DNA of 21,975 nucleotides from a virus: positions 1 through 21,975 of IMG/VR virus record IMGVR_UViG_3300010153_003428; one strand, 5' to 3'. This document shows positions 2,472 to 21,975 of the stretch, piece after piece. The notes beneath the pieces were generated by a model. That model was not told the origin of the DNA and ran no database searches. It worked only from the letters and a program-made list of their open reading frames with translations. The position numbers and the translations under genes were made by a program. Numbering within the stretch: position 1 is the stretch's first letter; the number at the start of each line of letters is the position of its first letter.

Positions 2472-2475
2472 TTTT

Positions 2476-5332: not shown

Positions 5333-6523
5333 TCATGGGCCTGGTGCTACGCTTACGGGCAATCCGTTGGGGTCAAACCCTGCCGTGGTTCCTGCTGGTG
5401 CTGCGCCTCTTCCCTCCCAAAGCTCTCCGCCTCCACCACCGCCCATCGCACCCGTGGCATAAGCCTGTCCGATTGTTCCTGCTACATCTGCTATTCCTTT
5501 GCCTATGTAGGCTCCAGTTGGTGTGATTGGTGCGCTTTCAAAAGCAGTTGTTGTGGGAGCCTGACCGACACCCAGCCTGAACGGATTGGTTACACTAAAC
5601 TTATCTGTGAACGCCTTGGTCTGTGCCACTTGTGGGGCTGTCTCAAATCCCATTGCCCTAGCCATCCCGGCATTAGCTTGATCCACGTTGGACAGTCTCA
5701 AGTCTCTCTCTTGGTCTTGTATCTGGAACTTCTCCTGCGCGTTCTTCAGGTTAGCCAAACTGGTAGCCAGCGCACCTTTCCCTGCAATCTGTTGACCAAT
5801 CTGTAGTTGCCCTAGCCTGTTGCCATACCCTGTACCGACATAACCCTTCCGTTGGTTCTGGGCCGCGAACTGATTGAGTTGCTCTTGCTGTTTCAGCTTT
5901 AGGGCTTCGTTCTCTAAACGGGCAGCCGATGTTCTTTGATCCGCTAACGCTTGGAAGTCTCCTAATCTTTGGCTCTCCCGTGCGCCTGTGTAAATTCCTG
6001 TGATAGCCTCGGCTGCACCCTCTTGAGCTGGTCTGAATCTATCTTGAATACCACCAAAGACGGCAGCCAGTTCCTCTGGGGTTTTGCCCATGTTATATAT
6101 GGACATTGCCTCCTTGGCTGTTGTTGACTCAAACGGCTTGGAAACCAGATCAACTAACCGGGACTCCAACATATCTCGGTTTCCGTCTGGCCCAAATGAG
6201 TCCACTCCTTGTGCGTCTGTAGTTATCCCCGGCACAACCACACCGCTTTCCTTCGCCAAGTTAATGAGTTGGGTGTCGCTCATCCCTCGAAGGTCTTGGT
6301 GGGAGTATGCCCCCTCTCGGAAGTACAACGGCAGTATCGCGCTACCGTATGCCCCCCTGGATTCTAGGAACCTCTCATAGTCGAGCCGGTTCTTTTCATC
6401 CATTGCAGCCTTGTTTTGCCTCTGTGCGTTCTTGGCAGCCTTCGATTGCTGTGACCCCGCATACGCAGACCCAGCGGCACCGATGACCGCACTTCCTACT
6501 ATCGCTCCTGCAACTCCACTCAT
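5333..6523 (-). CDS. T7 gp14-like internal virion protein candidate with glycine-zipper N terminus (396 aa)
   Basis: Residues 3-23 form a small-residue hydrophobic segment (GVAGAIVGSAVIGAAGSAYAG, here split as residues 3-12 and 13-23) with a glycine-zipper pattern suited to membrane insertion. A basic A/K/Q/N-rich helix (about 24-55) follows. The middle is helical, and about residues 190-290 are Gln-rich coiled coil. The C terminus returns to Gly/Ala/Pro-rich sequence with GGGGGG near residue 365. This architecture matches the first inner-core ejection protein of podoviruses (T7 gp14 type), which forms a pore in the outer membrane during genome entry. The start has a good ribosome site, AAGGA 6 nt before the ATG, and overlaps the acetyltransferase stop as ATGA. 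It opens the ejection cassette. The family call rests on architecture and position, not on a visible signature motif. Confidence 0.65.
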   Translation of the reverse strand: MSGVAGAIVGSAVIGAAGSAYAGSQQSKAAKNAQRQNKAAMDEKNRLDYERFLESRGAYGSAILPLYFREGAYSHQDLRGMSDTQLINLAKESGVVVPGITTDAQGVDSFGPDGNRDMLESRLVDLVSKPFESTTAKEAMSIYNMGKTPEELAAVFGGIQDRFRPAQEGAAEAITGIYTGARESQRLGDFQALADQRTSAARLENEALKLKQQEQLNQFAAQNQRKGYVGTGYGNRLGQLQIGQQIAGKGALATSLANLKNAQEKFQIQDQERDLRLSNVDQANAGMARAMGFETAPQVAQTKAFTDKFSVTNPFRLGVGQAPTTTAFESAPITPTGAYIGKGIADVAGTIGQAYATGAMGGGGGGELWEGRGAAPAGTTAGFDPNGLPVSVAPGP

Positions 6524-6957
6524 AATAATTCCTTTACATATACTTTCTCTTTAAGCTCGTATCCTGACTTGGTGTAGTATCTCTCCATTTTATCTGAGTT
6601 CAAGGCGAGTAGATGAATCATCCAAATTCTTTTAGCCCCCCTAAACTTTGCCTCTTGCTCAAAGCGAGTGAACAACTTGAGTCCACCCTTCCCTCTATGG
6701 TCTGGATCGACATACCAAAACGCTTCCAAGCAACTGACATCCCCTGTAATAAAATCATCATATATCGCACCCGCCATCGTCCCCTTAACCTCTCCACCTT
6801 CCACAAGGGAAAGGGCAACCCCTGTATCCATTAGCTTCACGACCCCGTCCTTGAACGAACTAGGACTAGGTTTCCCTGACAGTTTCCCCTCCTTAAAGAA
6901 CTTGTGGTAGAGGGTGATAATGTCAGGCAGATCACGCAGAGTCGTTTGTCTTACCAT
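6520..6957 (-). CDS. GNAT-family N-acetyltransferase
   Basis: The protein is 145 aa, the usual size for a single-domain GNAT enzyme, which transfers an acetyl group from acetyl-CoA to an amine. The acetyl-CoA-binding motif A is seen as RGKGGLKL at residues 88-95, just after a beta-strand (ECLEAFWYVDPDH region) and followed by a helix. The C-terminal NSDKMERYYTKSGYEL stretch is the usual last helix (N-x-x-x-x-x-Y-x-K-x-G-Y/F). The substrate cannot be told. The gene overlaps the 2OG oxygenase by 26 bp and the ejection gene by 4 bp (ATGA), so it is made with the virion proteins. Similar small GNATs occur in phage late regions, where modification of virion proteins or of host targets has been proposed. 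No clear Shine-Dalgarno is visible, which fits translation coupled to the gene before it. Confidence 0.85.
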   Translation of the reverse strand: MVRQTTLRDLPDIITLYHKFFKEGKLSGKPSPSSFKDGVVKLMDTGVALSLVEGGEVKGTMAGAIYDDFITGDVSCLEAFWYVDPDHRGKGGLKLFTRFEQEAKFRGAKRIWMIHLLALNSDKMERYYTKSGYELKEKVYVKELL

Positions 6958-7522
6958 TAAAAAAACATACCCACACTAACCTTCCATCTTCATTGCTCGT
7001 ACCAAACCCTTCGTGGGGGTAGCGGCTATGGAAAACCTTCGTTGGGTAAACTATAAATCTGTTAAACTTCATACCGATAAACCCTGACATTTCCCAGAGT
7101 TCCTTGTCCTTCCAATCTGCTGTCAACTGCTCACCGAACTCCACCTGTGAAACACCTAAAGCATTCACCTCTTCATCTTCAGGAACCCTGTCCCACTTCA
7201 TGTGCTTGTGCTTCCAGAATGCTGTGCCTCCCTTGGCTTGCTCATCCGTGTTCAGGTACAAAAGCCCAGCCCAATCAGCGCATATCTCGTCACTATGAAC
7301 ATAGCTATGGGGCATCTCACCCTCTAGGTTCTGGCGGAAGAAAGACATCTTGTGGGTGACACCGTTCATCAGCTTGTCCACTTCACCTTTCAGCTCTTCA
7401 TCCTCGCCCATGTTGATGCCGGTATAGCTGAACCCATCTGGGCCGACCTCTTCCGTGAACCCTTCAGACACAACCCTGTTGCGTATCTCTTGGGCAGAGG
7501 AACTGAACTCGTCTTTAACCAT
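6932..7522 (-). CDS. 2-oxoglutarate/Fe(II)-dependent oxygenase-like protein (hydroxylase)
   Basis: The protein has about 196 residues. It shows the layout of the double-stranded beta-helix oxygenases, including the metal ligands HxD (H76, D78 in YVHSDE, numbered from the ATG at 7522), a distal His (H165 in KVFHS) and a following Arg (R181 in DGRLVWV) in the place that binds 2-oxoglutarate. The section LLYLN...GGTAFWKHK is typical of the prolyl-hydroxylase-like phage proteins of the DUF6445 type; that family name is from memory. The likely reaction is hydroxylation of a protein side chain or small molecule. A GTG at 7531 overlaps the fibre stop as GTGA and is the alternative start; neither start has a good Shine-Dalgarno. 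It lies directly after the tail fibre and before a GNAT gene, so fibre or virion modification is possible but unproven. Confidence 0.8.
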   Translation of the reverse strand: MVKDEFSSSAQEIRNRVVSEGFTEEVGPDGFSYTGINMGEDEELKGEVDKLMNGVTHKMSFFRQNLEGEMPHSYVHSDEICADWAGLLYLNTDEQAKGGTAFWKHKHMKWDRVPEDEEVNALGVSQVEFGEQLTADWKDKELWEMSGFIGMKFNRFIVYPTKVFHSRYPHEGFGTSNEDGRLVWVCFFNGKTNDSA

Positions 7523-7527
7523 TAGCG

Positions 7528-8973
7528 TCACGTTATATCATAAATAGCAGCCCAACCGTGGCCCCCACTTTGGCGGGTTGGCCGATCACCGGCAGCATAA
7601 TTTCCATTCCCGCCGCCACCTCCAAACCCATATCCAAGGCCAGTTGATTGCTTGCCAGGAGCAGTAACGCTGCTAATGCTACCAAACCCAGGTGTTCCCT
7701 TGTAGCTTACGCCTCCATGCCCTCCCAAGTCGCCTGTTAGTGCTGATGCTCCCGGATAAACAACTCCCTTCGCGCCTCCTGCTGACCCTGGAACGGTTTT
7801 AAGGTTTTGTGTGCCACCTGAAGATGCCGAACCGGCTGACGAACTTGTTCCAAGATTACCTCCGTTTGCGCTGGCCTTGACTGTTAGGGTCAATACCCCT
7901 TGGCCGCCGGTTCCGGTAACCAGTTTAAATGTAGTAGCCTCCCCGGCAGCAGCGGTAGTGTTCCCCCAGTAGTCGCGGTAGTCGCTGGGCCCCCCCGCCG
8001 CCGGTGGTCCTCCAGTTCCAACATGAATCTGGTACACCTGGTTTGACGCCACGGTAAACTCTGACTCGGTGTATTCTCCTCCCCCGCCCCCGTAATGCCC
8101 GTAGCCGCTTGCACCTGCGCCCTGAAGGCACACTCGTATTTTTGTCACCCCGGTGGGAGGAACCCAGATTTGTCCATTAGAATCACCCGCATTGCGCATA
8201 TTGGGAGTCACGACGTCAGCCGTAGGCTCTGTTAGCTCTATTAGTGGAGCTATTCCTATGTTTTGAAAAGATGGAGGTGCGTTGTTTGAGGTTGCGGTAA
8301 GTACCTGACCAGTTGATCCAGCAGGAATTAGAACAGGTGCGCCACCGCCGGTAGCAAAAGAGATAAGGTTGCCCGATGACTGAGTGGCTAACGCTGCAAG
8401 GGCAATGCTGTCTTCTACTCCTCCACCCAAAAGTTGAAACGCTGTGTTACTTAAATCGTACAGCATCCCCACCATTTCCCCTGCTTTTAAGTCCCCAGAA
8501 ATAAGCGGTGTGTTCTTGTTTTTGTAGACACTCTTTGCTCCTAGCGAACCAGAAGAGCCGGTTACTTCCAATGTGGTTGCACCCGTGTTGGCATTTGAAA
8601 CCTTAACAAGAAACAGCATCCCGTCCTCAAGCGCAGCAAGCCCCGCCGCCGTGAACGTAAGCGTATTAGCCGCCGACCCGCCATCCACCCCATAGTGTAC
8701 TGACTTGATCTTGCTGTAGTCCACGCTGTTGGCAGACAAATCTCCACCGTCCACACTTAATGCCTTGAGACTGCCATCCTCATTGTGAGCCTCGTCAAAC
8801 CGAGTGGAAGTACCTTCTATTGCGTCCTTCAGGTTGAGAAGGTTCATGTCCATCTCGGACGAGGTTAATGCTGCCCCCTTGTTGGTGGATGTGTCGCTCG
8901 CCCCGTATGCTGGGTTGGTAGCCGCGGTGTTGGAGGCCGTGGAGCGTGTGATGACTTTTACTGTTTGTGCCAT
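7528..8973 (-). CDS. Tail fibre / adhesin with C-terminal polyglycine domain (481 aa)
   Basis: The N terminus has the phage-fibre pattern in which ALTSSEMDMNLLNLKDAI (residues 35-52) precedes the shaft. Residues about 98-182 match a common fibre beta-domain (NTLTF..., LEVTGSSG, LKAGEMVGMLYD, FQLLG). Residues about 267-480 form a glycine-rich tip: WVPPTGVTKIRVCLQGAGA followed by glycine runs (GGGGG at about 295-299 and 451-455) and an end GWAAIYDI. This is the Gly_rich_2 type of domain, comparable to polyglycine adhesins such as T-even gp38, which bind the host surface. The start ATG overlaps the upstream stop as TAATG with no Shine-Dalgarno, so coupling is likely. No chaperone or pectate-lyase-like domain is visible. 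Receptor binding is inferred from the domain type and from its place next to the tail tube gene. Confidence 0.82.
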   Translation of the reverse strand: MAQTVKVITRSTASNTAATNPAYGASDTSTNKGAALTSSEMDMNLLNLKDAIEGTSTRFDEAHNEDGSLKALSVDGGDLSANSVDYSKIKSVHYGVDGGSAANTLTFTAAGLAALEDGMLFLVKVSNANTGATTLEVTGSSGSLGAKSVYKNKNTPLISGDLKAGEMVGMLYDLSNTAFQLLGGGVEDSIALAALATQSSGNLISFATGGGAPVLIPAGSTGQVLTATSNNAPPSFQNIGIAPLIELTEPTADVVTPNMRNAGDSNGQIWVPPTGVTKIRVCLQGAGASGYGHYGGGGGEYTESEFTVASNQVYQIHVGTGGPPAAGGPSDYRDYWGNTTAAAGEATTFKLVTGTGGQGVLTLTVKASANGGNLGTSSSAGSASSGGTQNLKTVPGSAGGAKGVVYPGASALTGDLGGHGGVSYKGTPGFGSISSVTAPGKQSTGLGYGFGGGGGNGNYAAGDRPTRQSGGHGWAAIYDIT

Positions 8974-11992: not shown

Positions 11993-12243
11993 TTGAGTTT
12001 CGGTTTCTTGTACCTCTTTGCCTTAACCATTAAGTCTGCTGCTAGTTCAGGGTTCGATGTCTGGTTCCCAATGGCTGCTGCCTTACACTCGCTGTATGTT
12101 GGGTTTCTTTCCTTGAGTATATCTAGTCCATGACTCCTCCAGTATTCGTTAATGGCATCCCCCTCCCTTTGTGTTTCAAATTTTCTTTGCTGGTCGCCCT
12201 TTGCGTTTAGGGGGTTCAACCTGTTGGACTTCGAGGACATCAT
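11989..12243 (-). CDS. Small basic protein of unknown function (84 aa)
   Basis: I do not recognise this protein. It is basic, with many Lys, Arg, Asn and Gln residues, a middle segment EYWRSHGLDILKERNPTYSE and a very basic tail ending KRYKKPKLK. The start is ATG 12243: AAGGAG lies 7 nt before it at 12251-12256, the clearest ribosome site of this part of the window. An upstream ATG at 12276 lacks a ribosome site and adds only an unlikely leader. The gene overlaps the previous gene by 68 bp in another frame and the adaptor gene by 4 bp (ATGA). Its position between capsid and adaptor genes suggests a virion completion or DNA-binding part, but nothing in the sequence shows the function. Confidence 0.6.
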   Translation of the reverse strand: MMSSKSNRLNPLNAKGDQQRKFETQREGDAINEYWRSHGLDILKERNPTYSECKAAAIGNQTSNPELAADLMVKAKRYKKPKLK

Positions 12244-12553
12244 CGACTGACTCCTTGGGAGCTGGAGGGGCCACATGACCCACAGCTTGTTGTTCCGACG
12301 CGGCGTTCAAGTTTGGAGAGGTAGCTTGCCTCACCGCTTTTTTTTTCAGGAAGTCATTGTAGGTTCCCTCTGAAATTTCCTTAACTTGACCGTCATCAGC
12401 CAACTTGGATAGGGCGACAATCTCACCATCTGATTCAGTCTTGTAGACCCCCCTCCAGCTTCCGCCTGTGACCTCAATGGCCTCAAAGACAAAGGTGAAT
12501 CCGTCCATTTGCTTCCCGCTCATCGGAGAACCGGCGTAGTATTTAGCAGCCAT
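12176..12553 (-). CDS. Unknown small protein with basic AT-hook-like C terminus (125 aa)
   Basis: The protein has a compact N-terminal domain (residues 1-72) with strands such as FTFVFEAIEVTGGSWRGVY and a final EGTYNDFLKKK helix. A variable Ala/Pro/Gln-rich linker follows, and the C terminus ends PPKRKGRPAKKI, like a single AT-hook (a short K/R-G-R-P motif that grips the DNA minor groove). It is the first gene after the terminator at 12.6 kb, and the TGTTACCCTA element ends exactly at its ATG, so it probably heads the third late transcription unit. The ribosome site is weak. Its tail is read through in another frame by the next gene. Related small proteins with a similar N-terminal layout occur near head genes of other phages, but their role is not known to me. 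Confidence 0.6.
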   Translation of the reverse strand: MAAKYYAGSPMSGKQMDGFTFVFEAIEVTGGSWRGVYKTESDGEIVALSKLADDGQVKEISEGTYNDFLKKKAVRQATSPNLNAASEQQAVGHVAPPAPKESVDDVLEVQQVEPPKRKGRPAKKI

Positions 12554-12581
12554 AGTTAAGAACCTAGTTATAGGGTAACAT
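12553..12581 (-). promoter_or_regulatory. TGTTACCCTA element, copy 3 (putative phage promoter/operator)
   Basis: The decamer TGTTACCCTA lies at 12580-12571 and is followed at the same spacings as in the other copies by T, GT and AAC; the last base of the element is the A of the next ATG. It begins 11 nt after the T-run of the terminator, the order expected of a terminator-promoter junction. Compare the copies at 15058-15086 and 19412-19440. The promoter role is inferred; an operator or processing site is also possible. Confidence 0.6.
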
Positions 12582-12591
12582 TATTTCAAGG

Positions 12592-12625
12592 AAAAAAAAG
12601 GGCCGAGGCTTTTACACCCCGACCC
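12592..12625 (-). terminator. Strong intrinsic (rho-independent) terminator after the capsid unit
   Basis: On the coding (minus) strand GGGTCGGGG (12625-12617) can pair with CCTCGGCCC (12608-12600) as 9 pairs including two G-U wobbles, around an 8-nt loop, and is followed at once by eight T residues (12599-12592). It follows the stop of the decoration gene by about 35 nt and sits 11 nt before the third TGTTACCCTA element. This is a textbook terminator and probably limits read-through from the capsid unit into the tail genes, as T-phi does after T7 gene 10. Confidence 0.85.
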
Positions 12626-12659
12626 CAGTAGCAGAGACAGAACAGGTATGGAGCAAAAA

Positions 12660-13037
12660 TTAGCTGTTACTATGAGTGCTGAGTGCGACCCACTTGGTTC
12701 CTGTCCACATCAACGTGATGCTATCATCTTCGCTGTCCAAGCTGAAGTCAGCCCCTATTTCTAGCGTCGAGCCGGGGTCTGAGTTGTTTTTAACGACAAC
12801 TGTATCACCGCCATCGGCAGCCATTAAGACAAGGATTTGCCCTGCCTGAGTGCCACCGCTAATGGTGGAGAGGTTATCAGTACTGGCAGCACCTTCTGTC
12901 GCAACCAGATGAAACGAATCGGTAACAGTAATCGCCCCGGTTGCTATCGTTAGAGTCGCGCCTTTGGAGAGGATTCTGCCTTTTTCGATGTGGCTCTTTA
13001 CATCAGTCAGAGTATCGTATGGTTTAATCTGTGGCAT
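12660..13037 (-). CDS. Capsid decoration or head-fibre candidate (125 aa)
   Basis: The protein begins MPQIKPYDTLTDVKSHIEKG and then becomes almost wholly beta-strand, with repeating hydrophobic/Gly-Thr strands (ATLTIATGAITVTDSFHLV, ILVLMAADGGDTVVVKN, EIGADFSLDSEDDSITLMW, GTKWVALS). The last strands, ADFSLDSEDDSITLMW then GTKWVAL, are the pattern of a trimeric fibre or head-decoration beta domain known from phages. It follows the capsid gene directly and is closed by the strong terminator, so it probably shares the high expression of the capsid. I chose ATG 13037: the in-frame ATG at 13082 would add 15 residues encoded by the hairpin region and has no support. The A/T leader matches the capsid gene's leader. 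Not recognised as a named family. Confidence 0.6.
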   Translation of the reverse strand: MPQIKPYDTLTDVKSHIEKGRILSKGATLTIATGAITVTDSFHLVATEGAASTDNLSTISGGTQAGQILVLMAADGGDTVVVKNNSDPGSTLEIGADFSLDSEDDSITLMWTGTKWVALSTHSNS

Positions 13038-13052
13038 AATATTTAATGTTAA

Positions 13053-13080
13053 GGGCAGGGGCCGGTTAAGACCCCCACCC
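13053..13080 (-). terminator. GC-rich hairpin between capsid and decoration genes
   Basis: On the coding strand GGGTGGGGG (13080-13072) can pair with CCCCTGCCC (13061-13053) as 9 pairs with two G-U wobbles around a 10-nt loop. No T-run follows, so it is at most a weak or partial terminator; a processing site or mRNA-stabilising end for the capsid message fits as well. It is flanked by an 8-bp direct repeat, AATGTTAA on the plus strand, at 13081-13088 and 13045-13052. Confidence 0.5.
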
Positions 13081-13096
13081 AATGTTAATCCTTTTC

Positions 13097-15046
13097 TTAG
13101 GTGATTGTTACGTCAGCCCCGGCAACACTCACACTAGGCGAGGCATCGCTGAAGTTTTCAACCAAAGCGTGACGGTTGGTGTTACCTACACGCACCTCGT
13201 ATGTCTTACTATTCAACTGATAGTGGGAGACATTGGGCTGAATGACACAGTTGTAGAGGTCATCAGCGGTGTTGGTCTGACGCTTCACGCTCGCAGTCTT
13301 GAGGACGTTGATCTGAATGTCTGACCAATCTATCAACCAGAGTTGGCGACCGATGTTCTTGTTGGTCGTGGTTCCGTCCGTGGCCGACAGGGTAGCCCCC
13401 AGCTTATCATCAAAGAACGTATCCGTGAAGACAGCCAAGCTGCACCCTTGATCCGGCAAGTCGTACTTGTTGTACTCAAGAACCACCTTGCCCTCGAACG
13501 TAATCTGCTGCTTGGGCTGCATGAACAGCGTCAGGTCAGCGGAATACTTGGCCTTGTAGTATTTGGTCATCAAGTCCCGAATCTTGGCAGCGGTAAACCG
13601 ATCCGTCATGGCGTCGATGGTATCCACCGTGCCACCAGAGTTCTCGCGTTCGCGCTTCAGCATATAGATAGACTCGAACAAGATATCCAAGTTCAATGCA
13701 GCGCCCGCGTTATCCCAAGTGCGTGAGCAATCGTTCAACTGGGTACGAATACCAAGCGTGTTGGACTTGTACTCAATCGTCGGAACAGAACTGCAACCAT
13801 CAAACGGATGTCCGCCGGATGGGTTCATTCCTTGGCCAGTATTAGGATCAACAACCGTAGGCAGACTTGTGTAAGTCTCAACCGTCTGGTTGCCGTTCAT
13901 CCTCTGCCCGTAGAACACAGAGTTCATAAAGGCATTCTGCTGGTAAGCCTCCTGTTGCTTGCGCTGTTGGGCGAGTGGCAACTGGCGGAACTTCTTGAAA
14001 TACTCCGAAGTCAACGGAGCTTGCAGGGCTTTGAGGTACTCCTCATTGTACTGGTGTGTCCACCGTTGAGTTTGTTGCCAATATTCTATCAACGTAAGAT
14101 CGTTAACGGCTGGCCCTTGGTGACACCACTTCTCGTAGTCGCTCACCGAGTTGCCCATAATCATGCCTGTACCAAGAGCAACCTCGTAACCAAGGTCAGC
14201 CTTCTCGGCATTAGTTAACTCTGTGATAGCGGGACTAGCTTGACCGTGCCACTTGATGTCAAGAGAATCGGTTGCGCTGCTAGAAGCATAATCACTTGGA
14301 GCAACAACTAGCCGTGCCTTGGAAACCCCGCCAGCATCTGCGTTTTCAGCAGCGTAAACCTTATACTGAATGTAAGATGTGGCCTTGTCCGCAAGAGTGG
14401 CGTTAGCTCCAAGCGACCTTCCGCTAACCATCACATTGATGTATGAACCGGGGTTGAAATACTTCTCAAGGTTTTGAACCTGACTCTTGTTGAAGTTAGT
14501 CTTCTCAAGGGCGTGAGTTCCTCCACCGGGAGCCGCATCCGTTCCAGCGTTGACGGTCATCACAAAAGCAGATGAAGGAATCCATCCGTATGTGGTGTTG
14601 TTCGTTGCTGGCCCTATCGTGAGGGTCATGGCGCTGAAGTTTCCAGTTGGGACCGCGTTGGTGTTATCCGTAACCCCGGCAACCGAACGACCTTCAATCT
14701 GGAAGTAGTTAAAGTTCAGCGTGTTCCTGCGTGGAACCAGAGTGAACGGGGCAATCACAGACTGCGAACCGCCACCAGATTTCTCACCCAAGGCAACGTG
14801 CTTTGAAAGTAATAGGTCATACAGGGATTTTTCGTGCATACCGGCAAGGCGAGCCTCGGCAGTTTGTGCGATGATCCTGTCCATCCCGACTTCTTTGGCT
14901 GCTTGAGCCTCAAAGTCGCTGCGTTTGAAGGCCGTTATGTTGGCCCTTGTCAGCGAGCAGCCTGTGGATTCATCGACAAGAATATGCCGAGGAGTACAGT
15001 TGTTAGTAATTGCGCCCGCTACAGGTGTAAGCGTTGAATTAGCCAT
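13097..15046 (-). CDS. Major capsid protein candidate (649 aa)
   Basis: The protein has a Thr/Ala-rich N terminus, a helical patch (residues about 39-80: FKRSDFEAQAAKEVG... EKSLYDLLLSK), then long beta-rich stretches and a helix-rich region (about 470-520: ESIYMLKRER, FTAAKIRDLMTKYYKAKY) followed by a strand-rich end. It is not a T7 or P22 coat by eye and is far longer than those (about 345 and 430 aa). It is called capsid because it directly follows the scaffold-like gene, carries its own promoter-like element and ends in a hairpin/terminator unit. HK97-fold coat proteins with large insertions reach such lengths. The leader (TAACAGTAAAATATATT before ATG) has no Shine-Dalgarno. The alternative is a very large tail or head protein, but the position argues strongly for the coat. 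Confidence 0.72.
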   Translation of the reverse strand: MANSTLTPVAGAITNNCTPRHILVDESTGCSLTRANITAFKRSDFEAQAAKEVGMDRIIAQTAEARLAGMHEKSLYDLLLSKHVALGEKSGGGSQSVIAPFTLVPRRNTLNFNYFQIEGRSVAGVTDNTNAVPTGNFSAMTLTIGPATNNTTYGWIPSSAFVMTVNAGTDAAPGGGTHALEKTNFNKSQVQNLEKYFNPGSYINVMVSGRSLGANATLADKATSYIQYKVYAAENADAGGVSKARLVVAPSDYASSSATDSLDIKWHGQASPAITELTNAEKADLGYEVALGTGMIMGNSVSDYEKWCHQGPAVNDLTLIEYWQQTQRWTHQYNEEYLKALQAPLTSEYFKKFRQLPLAQQRKQQEAYQQNAFMNSVFYGQRMNGNQTVETYTSLPTVVDPNTGQGMNPSGGHPFDGCSSVPTIEYKSNTLGIRTQLNDCSRTWDNAGAALNLDILFESIYMLKRERENSGGTVDTIDAMTDRFTAAKIRDLMTKYYKAKYSADLTLFMQPKQQITFEGKVVLEYNKYDLPDQGCSLAVFTDTFFDDKLGATLSATDGTTTNKNIGRQLWLIDWSDIQINVLKTASVKRQTNTADDLYNCVIQPNVSHYQLNSKTYEVRVGNTNRHALVENFSDASPSVSVAGADVTIT

Positions 15047-15057
15047 AATATATTTTA

Positions 15058-15086
15058 CTGTTATCTACCCACATTTAGGGTAACAA
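15058..15086 (-). promoter_or_regulatory. TGTTACCCTA element, copy 2 (putative phage promoter/operator)
   Basis: The decamer TGTTACCCTA at 15085-15076 is followed, at the same spacings as the other copies, by T, GGT and TAAC. It matches copy 1 at 24 of 29 positions counted by eye. It ends 11 nt before the capsid ATG. Part of the element (GTTACCC ... GGGTA ... TAAC) is also weakly palindromic, so a protein-binding site is as possible as a promoter. Confidence 0.6.
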
Positions 15087-15127
15087 CAAGACTACGCTTG
15101 GCTTATGGCTAAACGCTGAAGTTTTAG

Positions 15128-15173
15128 AAAAAACCTAGAAGAATCTTTATTTTTGCAGGAGGTTTTTAGATTC
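15128..15173 (-). terminator. Terminator-like or pseudoknot-forming region between scaffold and capsid genes
   Basis: Two crossing complementary pairs are seen on the coding strand: GAATCT (15173-15168) with AGATTC (15146-15141), and AAAAACCT (15167-15160) with AGGTTTTT (15136-15129), the latter ending in a T-run. Ordered a-b-a'-b', they could form an H-type pseudoknot, or be two alternative hairpins of which the second is a weak A/T-rich terminator. The region lies just after the scaffold stop and about 40 nt before the promoter-like element. No folding was calculated. Confidence 0.35.
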
Positions 15174-15175
15174 CA

Positions 15176-16555
15176 CTACTCTGTGGATACTGGGGAGAAG
15201 TCCATGCCCAAGGTTTTTACCAAGTCTTCACCGAATGATATGTCCTCTGCGCCCCCGGATTCCGCAGCTCCAGGTGACTTGGCTGTCCTCGCTTTAGGTG
15301 TGGTTATAGGCTTGGCATCCTCCTTAACTTTCCCTGTCTTTGTGGATTTCTTTCCCTTGCCCTTGGTGAATCCCATCTTCTCAAGCCGGTTATACTCTGA
15401 TTCAACCTGTTTTTTTGCGGTATTAGAGAAGAAGTTGTTGAACATTTGCAGCACTTCATCGGGGCCGAACGTCCAGTTTTCAGTTGGATTACCCTGTGCA
15501 GCATAGGTGGCGGGGGTCATAAAGTTTTTGTTATCCCTCACCAGATGGTTGCCTCCTTTCTGCGAGAACACGTTGGACTGATGGGTAACGAAATCCACGA
15601 TCCATTTCTGGGTGGAGTCGCTGCCGTCCCATGTCTTCATCCCATAGTACAGGTCAAGGTATTCCTTCCCTATCCCCTCGGCCTGATCTAGCTGTTGCTT
15701 GTAGATGGATTGAGCAAACTCGTCCTCTGTCTCCCCTGATTGCTTCAGGTTTTCGGTGAACTTGGAGAACTTCTTCTCGACGGTGGGCTTCGTCTCCAGC
15801 ACCCGCATCTTCTCCTTGAGGGCGTTGATCTCGGAATCCTTTTCGGTGGCTACCTGTTGAGCAGCCAAGTCCGCAATCATTTCCCTTTCGAGTTTCTTGT
15901 GGCCGGTTAGCTTTGGCTTGTGCTTGGCGACAAACTCTTGGAAATCTGTGTCATCATCACCAAACGACCCGTCACTTTCAGATGCGTACTTATCCAGTTT
16001 GCCGTAGAAATCTAGCAGCTTTTTGGATTGTCCTTTGTATTTGTCCGGGTGTTTTCTTTCAGCAAATCGCGCCAGTTCAAGTTCCTCAAGTTGTTCAGGG
16101 ACCAAGCTAGATGTGTCCTCCTCTGGTGCTTGATCTGGCTGTTGTGCTTGTTGCTGCTGTGGCGGTGTGGGGGTTGGTCGCTGCCTTGATACCTCATCGC
16201 GGACAGTACGCCGTATCTCTTCATAGTCTACCTTGGGAGCTTTGTAACTGACACGCTTCTTGGGCTTCTCCTCTGCTACCTGAACTTCTTGTGATTCTCC
16301 CCCCTCGCCCCGACCTTCGGCCTCGTTTGCCACGCTCCCTTCTTCTTCTTGGGTTTCTTGCTCTGGTTCTTGCTCTTCTTCACCTTGTTCTCCTTTCTCT
16401 TCAGGGGTTTCTGTTTCTTCTTGAACCACCCCAAGGTCTTGAAAGAGGGAATCCATAAAGGACTCTGGCTCTTCTGTCTCTTGGGTTTCTTCTACTTGCT
16501 CTTCTGTTTGTGGCTCTTGCTCCTCTACCTGTTCCGCTACTGCGATTTCACTCAT
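15176..16555 (-). CDS. Scaffolding protein-like acidic coiled-coil protein (459 aa)
   Basis: The first 95 residues are almost all Glu, Gln, Thr and Pro. A basic patch follows (about 96-105, KPKKRVSYKAPK), then a Pro/Gln linker (about 125-145), and helix-rich charged sequence from about 150 on, including FQEFVAKHKPKLTGHKKLER and coiled coil around 220-290. A Lys-rich stretch (about 390-420) lies near the C terminus. This is the usual make-up of phage scaffolding proteins, which assemble inside the procapsid with the coat protein and leave before packaging. The gene lies between portal and capsid genes, the standard scaffold place. The start is 5 bp after the portal stop, without a clear Shine-Dalgarno. 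It is longer than T7 or P22 scaffolds (about 300 aa), and no protease domain is visible. The call is position plus composition. Confidence 0.75.
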   Translation of the reverse strand: MSEIAVAEQVEEQEPQTEEQVEETQETEEPESFMDSLFQDLGVVQEETETPEEKGEQGEEEQEPEQETQEEEGSVANEAEGRGEGGESQEVQVAEEKPKKRVSYKAPKVDYEEIRRTVRDEVSRQRPTPTPPQQQQAQQPDQAPEEDTSSLVPEQLEELELARFAERKHPDKYKGQSKKLLDFYGKLDKYASESDGSFGDDDTDFQEFVAKHKPKLTGHKKLEREMIADLAAQQVATEKDSEINALKEKMRVLETKPTVEKKFSKFTENLKQSGETEDEFAQSIYKQQLDQAEGIGKEYLDLYYGMKTWDGSDSTQKWIVDFVTHQSNVFSQKGGNHLVRDNKNFMTPATYAAQGNPTENWTFGPDEVLQMFNNFFSNTAKKQVESEYNRLEKMGFTKGKGKKSTKTGKVKEDAKPITTPKARTAKSPGAAESGGAEDISFGEDLVKTLGMDFSPVSTE

Positions 16556-16560
16556 TGATT

Positions 16561-18909
16561 TTATTGCACCATAGGCATTTGTTGTTCTGCTTCTAACTCT
16601 GCTGCTGCTTCAGCTTCCATTGGGGCGGCTGCCTGTGGTTGTTGTTGGCCTCCCAATAAATCCCTTAACCCAGCTATCTCTTGGGCGTTAGTCTGTACCG
16701 CACCGATCACTTGCTGGACAACTCCTTCCATCTCCTTGTTCGGCCCACCCAGTTGGTTGTCATCTCCGGGTGCTACCTCCAGCTTGATGTCTGTTGCCCC
16801 TGACTTACGGGCTATCTCGTTAAGCAATTCGTAGTATTTGTCCTTGCCTAATGCCTCAAGAATAACAGGTGTCGAGCTGATAATCTGGAACAACTGGATC
16901 AGGGCTTGGGCCTCCTGCACGTTCGAGCTTCGTTCCGATCCGTCTCGGCTTGTGAAGATGTAGTCGTGTATCAGATTCTTCTTACTGCCTATAACGGTAT
17001 GCCTTCGCTCAAGGTCAGGCGACATAAACTCCAAGTCCTCTGGGTCTATCTCGAACCCTGCTTGTTCAATGATTGCAGGGCTGTACCGATTCTTGACCGG
17101 CAAATGGATTGTATTACTGCCCATGCTCATCAGGCTTTCGTAAACCACCCGCTTCATGGCTGCTCGTCCCTCATCAATAGCCTCGGAGATAAAGCTGTAG
17201 ACCGATTCAGTCGTGTTGTTGATGGTCATTATCTCGGTGGCACTTGTTTCCCTTGGCGCGGGTTGCCCCTGTTCCTGTGGGCTTAATGCCATCAAGCGTT
17301 CGGCCATCATCAGCAGTTGGTTGATCGACTGAAAGATGGTGTTAAGGTTCCCGTTGGGTTGGCTCCGAATAATCTTGAACACATTGTCGGGGCTGGTGTC
17401 CATCCCAAGGTTGGCGAGCTTCGAGAAGGATGTCTCCAGCACATGGGTCGAGGCGTAAAAGTTATCCCCCTGCATGGTATCCCTGAACTCATCCCTCACC
17501 TTCATCCCCTCTTCTGTGTCAGGGAATATGTCCGTATTCAGTACCCCTACCGAGAACATATCCGCCTTGGCTGTCTCAAGTAACTGGCTGAACAGGTTGG
17601 ATAACTGATCTTGAAACGGCATCAACTCATGGGCTACCGATATGTTTCTCAAACGGTTGTCGTTCTCGTTGAATGCAAATACGGCAGCCGGTGAGGACGG
17701 GAGGAACTCGGCAAAGATCACCGTCGAATCACCAGCTACCCGGAGATGAACCCAGAGGGGGTAAGGGTAGTCGCCTACACCCCATTGGTTGGGAATCATC
17801 TTCCAAAAGTAATCTGTAATAAACACAGAGGTATCCGTCATCTCACCAGAGTAGATGCCCACCGTGTTCTTTCTGTCGTTCCAACTGGTCAGGTCATCCT
17901 CTGTATGGGGCGGGACAATCTGCGTGTAGTAGGTGTTGAAGTAGGTGCTGTACTGGGTAAACAAGCCAGCCGTTGCAGATGTGTACCCCACCGAGTCCCG
18001 GTTGAAATACTCAGGGTTCTGCATTACATCCCCGTATCTTGCTATGTCCCAGAAGCCAATGTATTCGCTGCCAGTATCGGTGTTAACGGATGTCAGAGGG
18101 GAATCGTTATCCCAGAACACACGGCTTGGGTGCGGGTTGATCCAGCAGATGCCCTCCTTGCTGACGGTGGTCTTAATCCTTTGCCCACCCTCCATCTTGA
18201 ACTCGGCATCGCTTACATCCTTCTCCCATTGAACCTCCCTCTCCCAAGCAGCCCTTGGAAATGCTACAGCGTGACCGTACAGGAACATATCCCGCATGAT
18301 CTGGGTCTGGAAGTGGCGGTAGTCATACTGGTCGGCCATGATGTCCACCCTTTGAGACAGTACATCTGCCCTCAACTTACCGGCGGCGCTAGTTCCCCTT
18401 GGTTGATACTTAAAGAATGGGTACAGGTTGTTGTACTTGTTGACCTGTGCCGCCAGCCGACGAGTGACAAAGCTCCTCACTAGGTTGATGTTCACCTCGA
18501 AGAACTTTGGTAGGTCAATCTCGGTGGGCTTCCCGGCGGCATCTCGCTTCACATACTTGTCAGTAATCTTGAGCTTGCTTAACTCCTTGGCGCAGGACTC
18601 CACGTTGATCCTCTTCTGCGCGTACATGATGAGGGGAATGTTCCTGCTGTTGATGGGTGAACTGTCCCACGCCAGGTCTACGCTGCTGTAAAGGTGGTGG
18701 TTGCGTAGGCTGAAGGTGATGTGTTCGGTGATCCTTGAGGCGATTAAATCCTCTGCCTTCTCCCTTCTCTCAACGTCCTTCTCCAATGCCCTGACATCAT
18801 CCTTTGACATCTTATCAAGAGCCACCTTGCTTGGTAGCTTGGCTGTGAAGAGTTCCCTTAACCGCTCGTTGGTGGTTCCGTGTGCCTTTAGTACATCAAA
18901 ATCAATCAT
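16561..18909 (-). CDS. Portal protein (782 aa)
   Basis: The protein is of the podovirus portal size class. It starts with a charged helical segment (KMSKDDVRALEKDVERREKA), then shows the portal-type pattern of aromatic and charged blocks (FFKYQPRG, QYDYRHFQTQIMRDMFLYGH, PHPSRVFWDNDSPL, DYPYPLWVHLRV). The region ISVAHELMPFQDQLSNLFSQ is the long central helix area expected near the tunnel. The end, past about 745, is a Gln/Ala/Glu-rich flexible tail (GGQQQPQAAAP...), a common portal ending. The position between terminase and scaffold genes supports the call. The 12 subunits would form the ring at the capsid vertex through which DNA enters. Its ATG overlaps the stop of the preceding HTH-like reading frame by 8 bp (ATGATTGA). 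No strong Shine-Dalgarno is visible, consistent with coupling. Confidence 0.85.
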   Translation of the reverse strand: MIDFDVLKAHGTTNERLRELFTAKLPSKVALDKMSKDDVRALEKDVERREKAEDLIASRITEHITFSLRNHHLYSSVDLAWDSSPINSRNIPLIMYAQKRINVESCAKELSKLKITDKYVKRDAAGKPTEIDLPKFFEVNINLVRSFVTRRLAAQVNKYNNLYPFFKYQPRGTSAAGKLRADVLSQRVDIMADQYDYRHFQTQIMRDMFLYGHAVAFPRAAWEREVQWEKDVSDAEFKMEGGQRIKTTVSKEGICWINPHPSRVFWDNDSPLTSVNTDTGSEYIGFWDIARYGDVMQNPEYFNRDSVGYTSATAGLFTQYSTYFNTYYTQIVPPHTEDDLTSWNDRKNTVGIYSGEMTDTSVFITDYFWKMIPNQWGVGDYPYPLWVHLRVAGDSTVIFAEFLPSSPAAVFAFNENDNRLRNISVAHELMPFQDQLSNLFSQLLETAKADMFSVGVLNTDIFPDTEEGMKVRDEFRDTMQGDNFYASTHVLETSFSKLANLGMDTSPDNVFKIIRSQPNGNLNTIFQSINQLLMMAERLMALSPQEQGQPAPRETSATEIMTINNTTESVYSFISEAIDEGRAAMKRVVYESLMSMGSNTIHLPVKNRYSPAIIEQAGFEIDPEDLEFMSPDLERRHTVIGSKKNLIHDYIFTSRDGSERSSNVQEAQALIQLFQIISSTPVILEALGKDKYYELLNEIARKSGATDIKLEVAPGDDNQLGGPNKEMEGVVQQVIGAVQTNAQEIAGLRDLLGGQQQPQAAAPMEAEAAAELEAEQQMPMVQ

Positions 18910-19153
18910 ATCTTGCTTCTATTTCGGAGCGTTCCTGTAGGTAAAACAACAGAGCTATGTACGAGGGAACCCTCCCTGACCTCATCCACATCCTCAATCT
19001 GTTGACAGGGATACAGCTCCTTGCCGCCAGTTCCTCCACGGTTACATTCAGAAAAGCGCAACATCTTTTAACCCTGTCCCTGTCCCAACCCTTGAGTACC
19101 CCGGCCTTGTCGTGGATTCTCTCAAGCAGGAAAGTTGTGGCATTAGTAGCTAT
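18902..19153 (-). CDS. Small HTH-like protein with no ordinary start codon (about 83 aa)
   Basis: This reading frame is open from 19168 to the stop at 18902-18904. The product looks like a real protein: a helix (FLLERIHDKAGVLKGW), then a helix-turn-helix-like stretch (FLNVTVEELAARSCIPVNRL, then RMWMRSGRVPS) and a helical end (IALLFYLQERSEIEARYD). No ATG, GTG or TTG lies before the HTH part. The candidates are ATA at 19153 (chosen here), CTG at 19129, or +1 frameshifting from the acidic gene just upstream, where AAA-G near 19160 would let tRNA-Lys slip from AAA to AAG and continue in this frame. The frame overlaps the acidic gene's end and the portal start by 8 bp (ATGATTGA). A sequence error cannot be ruled out. 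The HTH resembles many small phage DNA-binding proteins, so a role in packaging or in regulating the late genes is possible but unproven. Confidence 0.55.
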   Translation of the reverse strand: MATNATTFLLERIHDKAGVLKGWDRDRVKRCCAFLNVTVEELAARSCIPVNRLRMWMRSGRVPSYIALLFYLQERSEIEARYD

Positions 19154-19400
19154 CTTCTTTACCGCCCATCATTACCGCCATTACGGGGGACTCCTCATCT
19201 TCATCCCCTTCTTCATCCTCATCGTCAGCATCGGCGTGTTCCACAGATACATCCTTGATTGAGAAGACAGCCTGTTCGTCAGTTAATTCGTCCAAGGTGG
19301 CTGTTATTTCCATCTTGCACTCATCGCCGGGAGCCTTGCTTGTGATGTACTCGGCCAGTTCCTCGTCATCCGCCAGGTCTAAAACTACTTTGTCCGTCAT
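19143..19400 (-). CDS. Small very acidic protein of unknown function (85 aa)
   Basis: The protein is rich in Asp and Glu, with a strongly acidic run near the C terminus (HADADDEDEEGDEDEESP) and a short hydrophobic patch, VMAVMMGG, before the end KEDSY. It could be a small head or packaging accessory, or a DNA mimic, but nothing decides this. The start is ATG 19400: AGGA lies 9 nt before it, while the ATG at 19409 lies directly on that ribosome site. It is the first gene after the large terminase and is preceded by a copy of the TGTTACCCTA element, so it probably opens the unit that carries the portal and scaffold genes. Confidence 0.65.
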   Translation of the reverse strand: MTDKVVLDLADDEELAEYITSKAPGDECKMEITATLDELTDEQAVFSIKDVSVEHADADDEDEEGDEDEESPVMAVMMGGKEDSY

Positions 19401-19411
19401 GTTGACCATTC

Positions 19412-19440
19412 CTGTTTACTACTCAATTTTAGGGTAACAA
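19412..19440 (-). promoter_or_regulatory. TGTTACCCTA element, copy 1 (putative phage promoter/operator)
   Basis: The decamer TGTTACCCTA at 19439-19430 begins right after the terminase stop codon. Downstream it keeps T, GT and AAC at the same spacings as the copies at 15058-15086 and 12553-12581. It ends with the A-C-A-G that begins the ribosome site of the acidic gene. No terminator is seen before it, so late genes behind it may be read both from this site and from the terminase transcript. Confidence 0.6.
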
Positions 19441-20952
19441 TCAAGGGTTTCCGCAATGAATTAAATTTGGCCTTATGTCCGCCGCTCTTGGTAATTGGGA
19501 GTTATTGTTCAGGTCGAGCTTAAACATGGGGTATGTGATGGAGTCAAACTTGTGGATGTATTTGCTCCGCTTTGGTTTTGTCGGGGCTTTCTTGTCAGAC
19601 TCCAGATTCATTAGCATATCCACGGAGTTAGTGCAGAGAGCCGACACATAGAACTCATCCTGAAAGAGCTTCCCTGATAGCAGCCTGACCCTTGCCTCCA
19701 CGCTGCCATGCCCCTTGGGACACCCAACCATCTTGATTCGCCCATCGCTGAACCGCTCGAAGTCCCAGCTATCGTAGCTTCCTTCCCCGCCGGGATGCCA
19801 TTGGTTGATAGCACTTGAGTCGGTGATGTGTTCATAGGAGAACTCCGTACCCATCTTCTCGTTCCAGTAGTCCATCCGTTGCATAATCTGCTGGGCCAGC
19901 CGCTTGTAAAGGTGGCGTTCCCCTAGATAATCCACCTCATCAAAGGCAATCCATAGGTTTCCGCGCTCGGTGGGTATCATCTGAAGGAATGTCACGGCAG
20001 AGTAAACCTGTCCCAAGTCATACCCTATGATGATTGGATGCCCCACCTTTGGCATGAGTCCCTTCCCGCTGATCTCGTCCCCTTTCTTGTGCAGTTCAGG
20101 CGAGAAGTATTCCTTGAACAGCGACTCCCCCGTGGGTCTGTCTACCCATTCCCCTTGGATGAGCCGCCGCCACTCTACGGGATCAGAACGAAGGATGTCC
20201 TCCAAGCTCTCAACATAACCAGGGGGTAGCCTCTTGGCATTCTCCCGCATTGGAACATGGTAGACCTTAAAGTTCTTGTTCCTCTTGCCCTTGTCATCAA
20301 CGCAATCCTCGAAGAACTGCTTGTAAACCCAATGGCTTGGCCCCTCTGGGTTGCAGCTCGCGCAGTATTGCTGTGGCCCCTCTATCCCTCTGCGCCTACC
20401 CAACTGGGCGGCAGGGTATCGGAAGTATTCCACCCCATCGCATTGGGTTAGCTCGTCCACATAGCAATGGCTGGGGGCTGGGCCTTTGATCCTAGTCTCG
20501 ACTGCCCCTGAGTAGGGAATCGAAACCAGAAGCAATTTGCTCCAGCCCCCGAACCGATTGCGTATCCACCTGTGTCTGTCCTTCGTATTGGGGTCAAGCT
20601 TGGATACCGTGTACTCTAGCCCTATGCCTTCCTCCCATTGTGGAAGTACCAGCGTGTCCAGATCATGCCAGATACCCTCCGACCCAGTACGGATTGAAGG
20701 GGCAAGGATAAGGACTAGGGCATTGTTCTCTTCGTAGGCGTGTCGGGTCAGTTTGTGGGCAAAACCAATGGTCTTACCGCTACCTTTCTCACCGTATCCC
20801 AACACATACTTTGACGGGTCGTTAAAAATTTTCTCTTGGGTTTTGTTCAGGTCAGGGAACCAATCAGTTTTAGGTGGGGTCGGCTCTGTATCCATCACAG
20901 CTCCGGCGATGGCCTCGATCTCCTCATCTGAAAGGTTGGTCTTACTTGGCAT
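19441..20952 (-). CDS. Terminase large subunit (DNA-packaging ATPase/nuclease, 503 aa)
   Basis: This is the packaging motor that drives the genome into the procapsid and cuts it. The N-terminal ATPase shows Walker A GEKGSGKT (residues 54-61), Walker B CYVDE (163-167) and a coupling region YCASCNPEG (about 197-204). The RNase H-like nuclease shows acidic residues at D312 (IIIGYDLGQVYSAVTF), D378 (EHITDSSA) and D470 (HKFDSITYPMF). The length is normal for the family. GAGGT lies 8 nt before the ATG. The gene overlaps the small-terminase candidate by 11 bp and is followed directly by a promoter-like element. A complete set of motifs makes the call firm; the packaging type (cos or headful) cannot be read from this. 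Confidence 0.95.
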   Translation of the reverse strand: MPSKTNLSDEEIEAIAGAVMDTEPTPPKTDWFPDLNKTQEKIFNDPSKYVLGYGEKGSGKTIGFAHKLTRHAYEENNALVLILAPSIRTGSEGIWHDLDTLVLPQWEEGIGLEYTVSKLDPNTKDRHRWIRNRFGGWSKLLLVSIPYSGAVETRIKGPAPSHCYVDELTQCDGVEYFRYPAAQLGRRRGIEGPQQYCASCNPEGPSHWVYKQFFEDCVDDKGKRNKNFKVYHVPMRENAKRLPPGYVESLEDILRSDPVEWRRLIQGEWVDRPTGESLFKEYFSPELHKKGDEISGKGLMPKVGHPIIIGYDLGQVYSAVTFLQMIPTERGNLWIAFDEVDYLGERHLYKRLAQQIMQRMDYWNEKMGTEFSYEHITDSSAINQWHPGGEGSYDSWDFERFSDGRIKMVGCPKGHGSVEARVRLLSGKLFQDEFYVSALCTNSVDMLMNLESDKKAPTKPKRSKYIHKFDSITYPMFKLDLNNNSQLPRAADIRPNLIHCGNP

Positions 20953-21604
20953 TCTTGCTGACCTCGACCTTACCCTCAGTCTTAATCATAATGTTATTCA
21001 TGGGGGCAAACCCCGGCTTACCTGATGGCCCCTTGCCGTTGCGCTCCTCGGCCTTCTGTTTTATCTGTGCATCTATCAGCGCACCCTTGATGACCTCCCG
21101 GTTGATCTCATTACGCAGCTTAACCGTATTAAACAGGGCATCATACAAGGTTTGTTCCCTCTCCTGCTCCTGTCCCTCTGCCAGTTCTCCTCTGATTTCC
21201 CTGAACACCACGCCCAACTCCATGAAATCCTTGAGCAATCCGCCCGTGGTCATCTGCCTCATCTGGCCAAGGTGCGCTGCCGCAAATGCTGATGTGGCTA
21301 TTGCCTCCTGCTTGCACTCACCCTTTATCCCGACAGCCTCAAGCCCCCTACCTAGCGAAGCCTCCTCCTCTTTGAGCTTGGCCACGAACTTATCGGCTGG
21401 GTCTTGGCGGTGGATCACATCTGTTGAGGTTGGAACCTTGACATCCCCGTTGCCCCACTTTAAATTAAACTCTGGGTCTGTCTTGATTAGCTTCGTGAGC
21501 TTGTAATGACTGATCCCGACGAGATTGGCCGCTGTATCAATAACGCCGCTGGACTCATCCAATGCAATATGTATCGCCTTGCGCTCGCCGTCAGTTAACT
21601 TCAT
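20942..21604 (-). CDS. Small terminase subunit candidate (220 aa)
   Basis: The N terminus has a helix-turn-helix of the Fis-like kind: ALDESSGVIDTAANLVGISH then YKLTKLIKTDPEF (residues about 13-45). The rest is mainly helical, with A/E/Q/K-rich segments around 110-195 that could assemble the ring, and a basic/Gly/Pro tail (KGPSGKPGF). The small subunit recognises the packaging site on the genome and passes DNA to the large subunit. It lies directly upstream of the large terminase, overlapping by 11 bp. Its ATG overlaps the integrase stop as ATGA. The role is from position and architecture; the length is above most small terminases (about 100-200 aa). Confidence 0.65.
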   Translation of the reverse strand: MKLTDGERKAIHIALDESSGVIDTAANLVGISHYKLTKLIKTDPEFNLKWGNGDVKVPTSTDVIHRQDPADKFVAKLKEEEASLGRGLEAVGIKGECKQEAIATSAFAAAHLGQMRQMTTGGLLKDFMELGVVFREIRGELAEGQEQEREQTLYDALFNTVKLRNEINREVIKGALIDAQIKQKAEERNGKGPSGKPGFAPMNNIMIKTEGKVEVSKNAK

Positions 21605-21975
21605 GCCGAAATGTAGTGCCTCTCTGTTGTCCTCTCTGAGCTATGCCCTAAATCCCTGGCGATCTTGGCCAACTTCCCTCCGGCTTTCTTCGCGTTGGTG
21701 GCAAATGTCACCCTAGTGCAATGGAAAGTTTTCCCCTCTACACCATGTTTCTTCATCAGCCTCTTGAAGCTCACGGAAAATCTAGCCCTGTTCCCCTTGT
21801 TGTATTCGCTTTGCTGATAAGGAAACAGGTAGGTGTCATCTTCCATCGGGACAGACATGATTGCTTTACGCAGGGCAGGACTCATCTTGAGCTTCACCCT
21901 CTTGTCCTTCTTGTCTGTCCATACGGTGATCGTGGATGAGGTTAGGCAGTCCCACTCAAGCTGGATAATGTCGCC
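21601..21975 (-). CDS. Tyrosine recombinase (integrase), C-terminal fragment cut by window edge
   Basis: The 124 residues visible are the end of the catalytic domain. A beta hairpin with TDKKDKRVKLKMSPALR (about 20-36) is followed by the conserved residues of the family: H85 and R88 (FHCTR), H111 (DLGHSS) and the nucleophile Y121 (ERHYISA), 3 residues from the end. Tyrosine recombinases join phage and host DNA at attachment sites. The first catalytic Arg lies in the missing part. The gene overlaps the small-terminase start by 4 bp (ATGA), so it is translated with the packaging genes. No attachment site was recognised. Confidence 0.9.
   Translation of the reverse strand, partial: GDIIQLEWDCLTSSTITVWTDKKDKRVKLKMSPALRKAIMSVPMEDDTYLFPYQQSEYNKGNRARFSVSFKRLMKKHGVEGKTFHCTRVTFATNAKKAGGKLAKIARDLGHSSERTTERHYISA

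Follow-up and report, generated by a model that had tools for sequence, protein, structure and literature searches.

A directional intergenic element in a group of metagenomic phages and its possible role as the operator of an HTH protein

In a group of related phages, a short, directional element directly precedes structural genes, some early genes, and the gene for a small HTH protein. With slightly better than even confidence, we regard it as the operator of one phage DNA-binding regulator, most likely an XRE-like HTH protein that would be autoregulated and would control the structural genes and some early genes. Among possible factors, the HTH protein is singled out as the most likely one by its association with the sites only.

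Copies of the element and neighboring genes in the window

The window, that is, the whole stretch of 21,975 nucleotides that was analysed, is a 22-kb fragment of a virus record and contains terminase and integrase genes. The decamer TGTTACCCTA occurs three times on its coding (-) strand, at 12571-12580, 15076-15085, and 19430-19439, whereas 0.01 copies are expected on that strand (exact-match count, whole window). All three copies fall wholly inside the intergenic share of the window, which amounts to 587 bases (2.7%), and start codons at 12553, 15046, and 19409 (- strand) follow right after them. When up to one mismatch to TGTTACCCTA was allowed, 5 matches were obtained, whereas 100 shuffles averaged 1.03 and never exceeded 3. 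The exact search agrees with the preliminary description, which had placed three intergenic copies on the - strand, each directly before a gene, and had judged them unlikely to be due to chance; the excess of the three copies over the 0.01 expected and the conservation in relatives bear out this judgement. A fourth exact TGTTACCCTA at 1677-1686 lies on the + strand within a - strand gene, lacks the right-hand part, and is taken as chance. Apart from this extra copy, an origin of the element by chance or as a neutral repeat family has practically no probability left, given the expectation of 0.01, the strictly intergenic position, the conservation, and the in-step change across relatives.

Site A (19412-19440, - strand; TGTTACCCTA at 19439-19430) lies right after the stop codon of the gene for the terminase large subunit (19441-20952, - strand), which ends just upstream and has weak matches to actinophages only. 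It precedes an 88-aa gene (19143-19409, - strand), in which a second ATG at 19400 has a better spaced AGGA. Site B (15058-15086, - strand; TGTTACCCTA at 15085-15076), with the arms TACCC-N7-GGGTA, is located before the gene for a 649-aa putative major capsid protein (13097-15046, - strand), which was assigned by position and has no family match. Sites A and B share identical bases at 24 of 29 positions, and our recount gave the same figure as before. Site C (12553-12581, - strand; TGTTACCCTA at 12580-12571) precedes the gene for a 125-aa protein (12176-12553, - strand); its end overlaps the ATG and an SD-like AGG is present inside it. Directly upstream of site C there is an intrinsic terminator (12599-12626, - strand), so that the strong terminator described earlier before one of the copies was located just before copy 3 (12626-12599). 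In contrast to the bulk of the intergenic DNA, this terminator is retained by almost every relative.

The portal, scaffold, and capsid genes in the window are putative and were assigned by position and size only; the putative portal protein (782 aa; 16561-18909, - strand) also has no family match. The capsid and portal proteins had no match among 50,697 phage records, and no annotated isolate relatives were found for the capsid, portal, or HTH protein. A search for prophages and hosts returned only one low-coverage MAG contig. Contig L119 (DTSG01000084.1), which is filed under a Planctomycetaceae MAG with a coverage of 0.09, encodes a capsid protein of 90% identity and is probably either a wrongly binned phage contig or a hint of the host. 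The C-terminal part of a tyrosine recombinase (21601-21975, - strand) is cut by the window end, and in relatives the HTH gene and its own element lie just beyond. At the other end, positions 1-2475 (- strand) hold the first part of a 3.1-3.7-k-residue gene, which is fuller in G003 (33583-43293) and L067 (2242-11715). Its product is probably a virion protein; a HEIGH metallopeptidase-like motif was seen in relatives and no Pfam family scored above the cut-off. An acetyltransferase-like gene and one of the 'minor coat protein' family were observed among the tail genes at 6520-7531.

Conservation of the sites in related phages

Relatives were fetched by capsid (15) and by portal (31). In the close relatives site A is kept, site C is present in most, and site B in some. 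Site A occupies the orthologous place with a clade-specific core in G001, G003, G005, G008, G011, G012, and others, and it is missing in some distant clades (L079, L080, L082, L096). Site B is present in G001, L007, L009, and L018 and missing in G003 and the distant clades, while all main clades retain site C. A further site outside the window, site D, was found in relatives before a 172-aa tail gene that follows a 3.2-k-residue gene. Relatives also carry copies that are missing from the window, at early genes and at the small HTH gene beside the integrase gene. The search of related phages, which had been proposed as a check, yielded sites kept at orthologous positions as well as further copies. 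It had also been suggested that the copies divide the late genes into separately driven units; they do mark transcription units, but some early genes and the HTH gene carry copies as well. The regions of sites C and D are nearly identical in G003 and G016, which come from one dataset (IMG 2788500413), indicating that at least two close relatives co-occur there.

For a genome-wide count, a 12-base profile trained on the A and C sites plus one D site was applied to six records. It gave 37 sense versus 5 antisense matches with 2.7 expected, the training sites being counted in. Sense matches above the threshold numbered 3-10 per record, and distinct sites only about 5-10 per genome. A literature search for the motif found nothing.

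Architecture of the element and concerted change of its core

The left half of the element is strong (TGTnACnCTAWW), whereas the right half is weaker and consists of a TAAC/TCAC box, or GGGTnAC in G021; the centre is located ~13 bp from the element start. The 29-bp element of the preliminary description is a genuine repeated signal, but it really comprises a core of ~12 bp and a right part that is weaker and specific to each clade. All 37 tabulated sites have A or T at position 13, and nearly all of them have a TG at -15/-14, an A at -11, a T at -7, and a purine at +1. The invariance of the tabulated sites at positions 2, 5, 6, 8, 9, and 10 stems partly from the search pattern, and unselected orthologous sites also show it. 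Covariation of the arms over all sites was not significant (p about 0.24), and dyads exist only in single sites, namely site B and one of G021. A perfect dyad or an RNA hairpin was rejected, since covariation between the halves is lacking across the full set of sites and the folds are weak (mean z -0.5).

The same observations make it improbable that the element acts at the RNA level in the 5' leader, as a translational operator or a ribosome-binding signal. Its constant position just before start codons and the SD-like AGG in site C would agree with such a function, but neither a stable fold nor arm covariation was found, and at the HTH gene, where a promoter is recognisable, the element spans its positions -15 to -1 and would therefore be mostly untranscribed.

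In more distant clades, the orthologous places are occupied by TGTAACACTA (G005, G006, G012, L012) or TGTGACACTA (G008, G011, L014, L015). Within one genome the core is largely the same (TGTTACCCTA, TGTAACACTA, or TGTGACACTA), and it differs between clades, the change being common to nearly all sites of a genome. T4/C7 was found at 15/15 sites in clade 1, A4/A7 at 4/4 sites in G005, and A7 at 5/5 sites in G012, while G008/G011 have A7 at 12/12 sites and G4 at 10/12. A shared reader explains this in-step change across the sites of a genome, which would not arise if every site drifted on its own. Since the core is clade-specific yet mostly uniform within a genome, its pattern suggests that one trans-acting factor probably reads all copies in a genome.

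The HTH gene and promoter signals at the sites

The gene just upstream of the integrase and terminase genes, seen in relatives beyond the window end, encodes a conserved protein of about 115-175 aa as judged from the alignment. Its predicted model has a mean pLDDT of 86. A fold search with this model assigned XRE controller proteins as the best matches, with a probability of 0.99 but an E-value of 0.1, and the model also resembles XRE/Cro-CI proteins of viruses. The HTH protein, as modelled, hence resembles an XRE-like controller-type regulator, and a profile search of solved structures detected no sequence similarity to solved repressors.

In most lineages examined, down to ~37% protein identity, the HTH gene has the element or a clade variant of it in its own sigma70-type promoter; these lineages include all main clades. 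In the main clades, TTGAC(A/T/C) is followed after 16-18 nt by NACNCT (element positions 4-9) and, 6 nt further on, by the start codon, which corresponds to element position 16 and is the sole possible start in several genomes. The promoter of distant clades is TTGACA-N16-TAnnnT, with a spacer holding GTTACCTAAC, CTATACC, or TGATACC, and this clade-specific word recurs at site A in several of those genomes. In G021 and G023, whose HTH proteins are about 40% and 37% identical, GTTACC sites occur at the HTH gene and in a small number of intergenic gaps, and one of those in G021 is the dyad GTAACCCTACAATAAGGGTAACA before the capsid gene. Since G021 and G023 keep sites at such divergent HTH genes, the link between regulator and site outlasts much of both sequences. 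The farthest HTH homologues (L150-L161) have no clear site before the gene.

The C sites contain TTGAMW-N17-TAGKTT with the element within the spacer. At site C of the window, the -35-like hexamer is TTGAAA (12584-12589, - strand; TTGACA/TTGACT in relatives), and the -10-like hexamer TAGGTT (12561-12566, - strand) lies 17 nt past it, with the element core within the spacer. The sigma70-like signal at the C sites reached 8.4 of 12 versus 6.35 in shuffles. TTGACA 16-18 nt before a -10 hexamer was found at the HTH gene and site C and is missing at sites A, B, and E and at the giant gene, where no recognisable sigma70 promoter was seen around the element. A -35 at the right distance from the core taken as a -10 box is present at the HTH gene only. 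A canonical sigma70 promoter at every site was rejected because sites A, B, and E and the giant gene have none, and a CII-like activator at -35 because the start codons are only 15-40 nt from the element, which is too close. The early impression of a repeated signal that differs from a bacterial -35/-10 pair and marks transcription units is supported, since the element is conserved, directional, present in multiple copies, and subject to in-step change.

The element could instead be a dedicated -10-type promoter, which the host RNA polymerase would recognize with the help of either a phage sigma or a sigma-modifying factor, an explanation that we rate as possible and well short of even. It would consist of an extended -10-like box (TGn + NACNCT) without a -35, and transcription would start at the conserved purine at position 16-17 to give leaderless or short-leader mRNAs, in the manner of the phiEco32 gp36 promoters. 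The TG at -15/-14, the A at -11, the T at -7, and the purine at +1 in nearly all sites are in line with this, as is the element right after the terminator at site C. At the main-clade HTH gene, TTGAC precedes NACNCT by 16-18 nt and the start codon invariably follows it 6 nt downstream, which matches the layout TTGACA-N16-TAnnnT-N6/7-ATG of the distant relatives, and phiEco32 and 7-11 provide precedents (PMC8948821). However, two fixed C's within a -10 hexamer are unusual, the distant clades have the factor site in the spacer and not at -10, site C owns a separate -35/-10 pair, and no sigma gene was found in the G008 ORFs scanned. An operator is favored by the distant HTH genes and site C, where the element lies between a -35 and a -10 that are distinct from it, and by the weaker right half, which brings the centre close to the start point. 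At the main-clade HTH gene, however, the element occupies the -10 position itself, which is what one would expect of a promoter. On balance, we prefer the operator to the dedicated promoter.

Polymerase and sigma genes in a closed relative

The preliminary description had proposed either a dedicated phage promoter or a regulator site, together with a search for the gene of a T7-type RNA polymerase or a phage sigma. G008 is a circularly closed relative of 70.7 kb. No RNA polymerase or sigma family was detected among its ORFs in a Pfam scan, which left out the smallest ORFs and some structural genes and by which divergent phage sigmas can be missed. The giant virion protein of G011, a relative of G008, contains no polymerase domain. 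Neither of the two genes was encountered in the ORFs scanned, and of the proposed alternatives a regulator site fits best, while the promoter of a single-subunit RNA polymerase is not supported.

The core of T7-family promoters is CACTA(T/A)A. The clade-2 version of the element, ACACTAAA, resembles it, and the element is directional and present in multiple copies. Nevertheless, with no such gene in the G008 ORFs scanned, no polymerase match in the giant virion protein, and no conserved +1 G directly behind the TATA-like core, where position 13 is A or T, a T7-type promoter is very improbable and was rejected on the missing polymerase gene and the missing +1 G.

Two other features of G008 were observed. 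A tyrosine-recombinase-like ORF (L060:11437-12902; G008 51437-52902), recognized by eye and without a Pfam match, ends directly at tRNA-Met near a stretch of Ns, which is possibly an attachment site or an assembly join. At L059:12523-16057, a gene for an AAA_5/MoxR-like ATPase adjoins a 685-aa gene containing a DRSGSM motif (von Willebrand-like); this pair, unusual for a phage, is also present in G005.

Discussion

If the element is an operator, the HTH protein would bind bipartite sites that coincide with or adjoin promoter cores immediately ahead of start codons, and it would repress its own promoter. By analogy with L5 and Bxb1, it may repress initiation at the other sites or block a passing polymerase, and structural and some early genes would thereby be controlled together. 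Since sites A, B, and E and the giant gene have no visible sigma70 promoter, a plain operator at these places would presuppose promoters that escaped detection or a block of elongation. The protein may halt an elongating polymerase here, or a promoter that depends on a factor may be present. It is a more doubtful proposal that a dispersed one-orientation operator/stoperator regulon, read by an autoregulated XRE-like protein, arose independently in this phage family, with a half-site over the -10-like, leaderless promoter of the regulator gene and a specificity that switched in concert at least three times. The site and its candidate regulator offer a testable regulatory code in a phage family that has been seen in metagenomes only, and the matched site/regulator series TGTTACCCTA, TGTAACACTA, TGTGACACTA, GTTACCTAAC, CTATACC, and GTTACCGG would let the evolution of operator specificity be studied.

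Restriction-modification C proteins, such as C.Esp1396I, are autoregulated. Their XRE-type fold is the best structural match of the HTH model, although the match is weak, and the HTH protein differs in serving a phage regulon and in having extra conserved C-terminal helices.

The nearest known forms of the dedicated promoter are those of the phiEco32 type and of P23-45. The late promoters of phiEco32 (gp36) and 7-11 depend on sigma and have a short element before several units and no -35 (PMC8948821). A start 6-8 nt downstream of the present element is likewise geometrically possible, but no sigma gene was found and at some sites sigma70 promoters enclose the element in their spacer. Thermus phage P23-45 with gp39 uses extended -10, -35-less middle and late promoters (PMC7403470). 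The layout here is similarly extended -10-like and -35-less, whereas the box is NACNCT instead of TATAAT and no gp39-like protein was identified.

In Cluster A mycobacteriophages (L5 gp71, Bxb1 gp69), asymmetric operators and stoperators lie in short intergenic gaps, mostly in one orientation with respect to transcription. Their genome-specific consensus shifts with the repressor, some sites are in promoters, and one is upstream of the gene for the repressor, a small HTH regulator; L5-type repressors stop elongation at stoperators (PMC6550527, PMC9283540). The present sites are also asymmetric and mostly in one orientation (37 sense versus 5 antisense matches, 2.7 expected), share a consensus specific to each genome, and include one at a regulator gene, if the HTH protein is the repressor. 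On the other hand, there are 5-10 sites per genome compared with more than 20 in L5-type phages, the sites have another sequence with a weak right half-site, and the HTH protein had no match to L5 gp71 (HTH plus stoperator domain) in profile and fold searches. Since the putative repressor has no detectable similarity and the sites are fewer, we do not assign the system to this group, although by analogy it would work most like a Cluster A operator/stoperator set. A stoperator-like mode of action, if true, suggests that such silencing is not confined to Cluster A mycobacteriophages.
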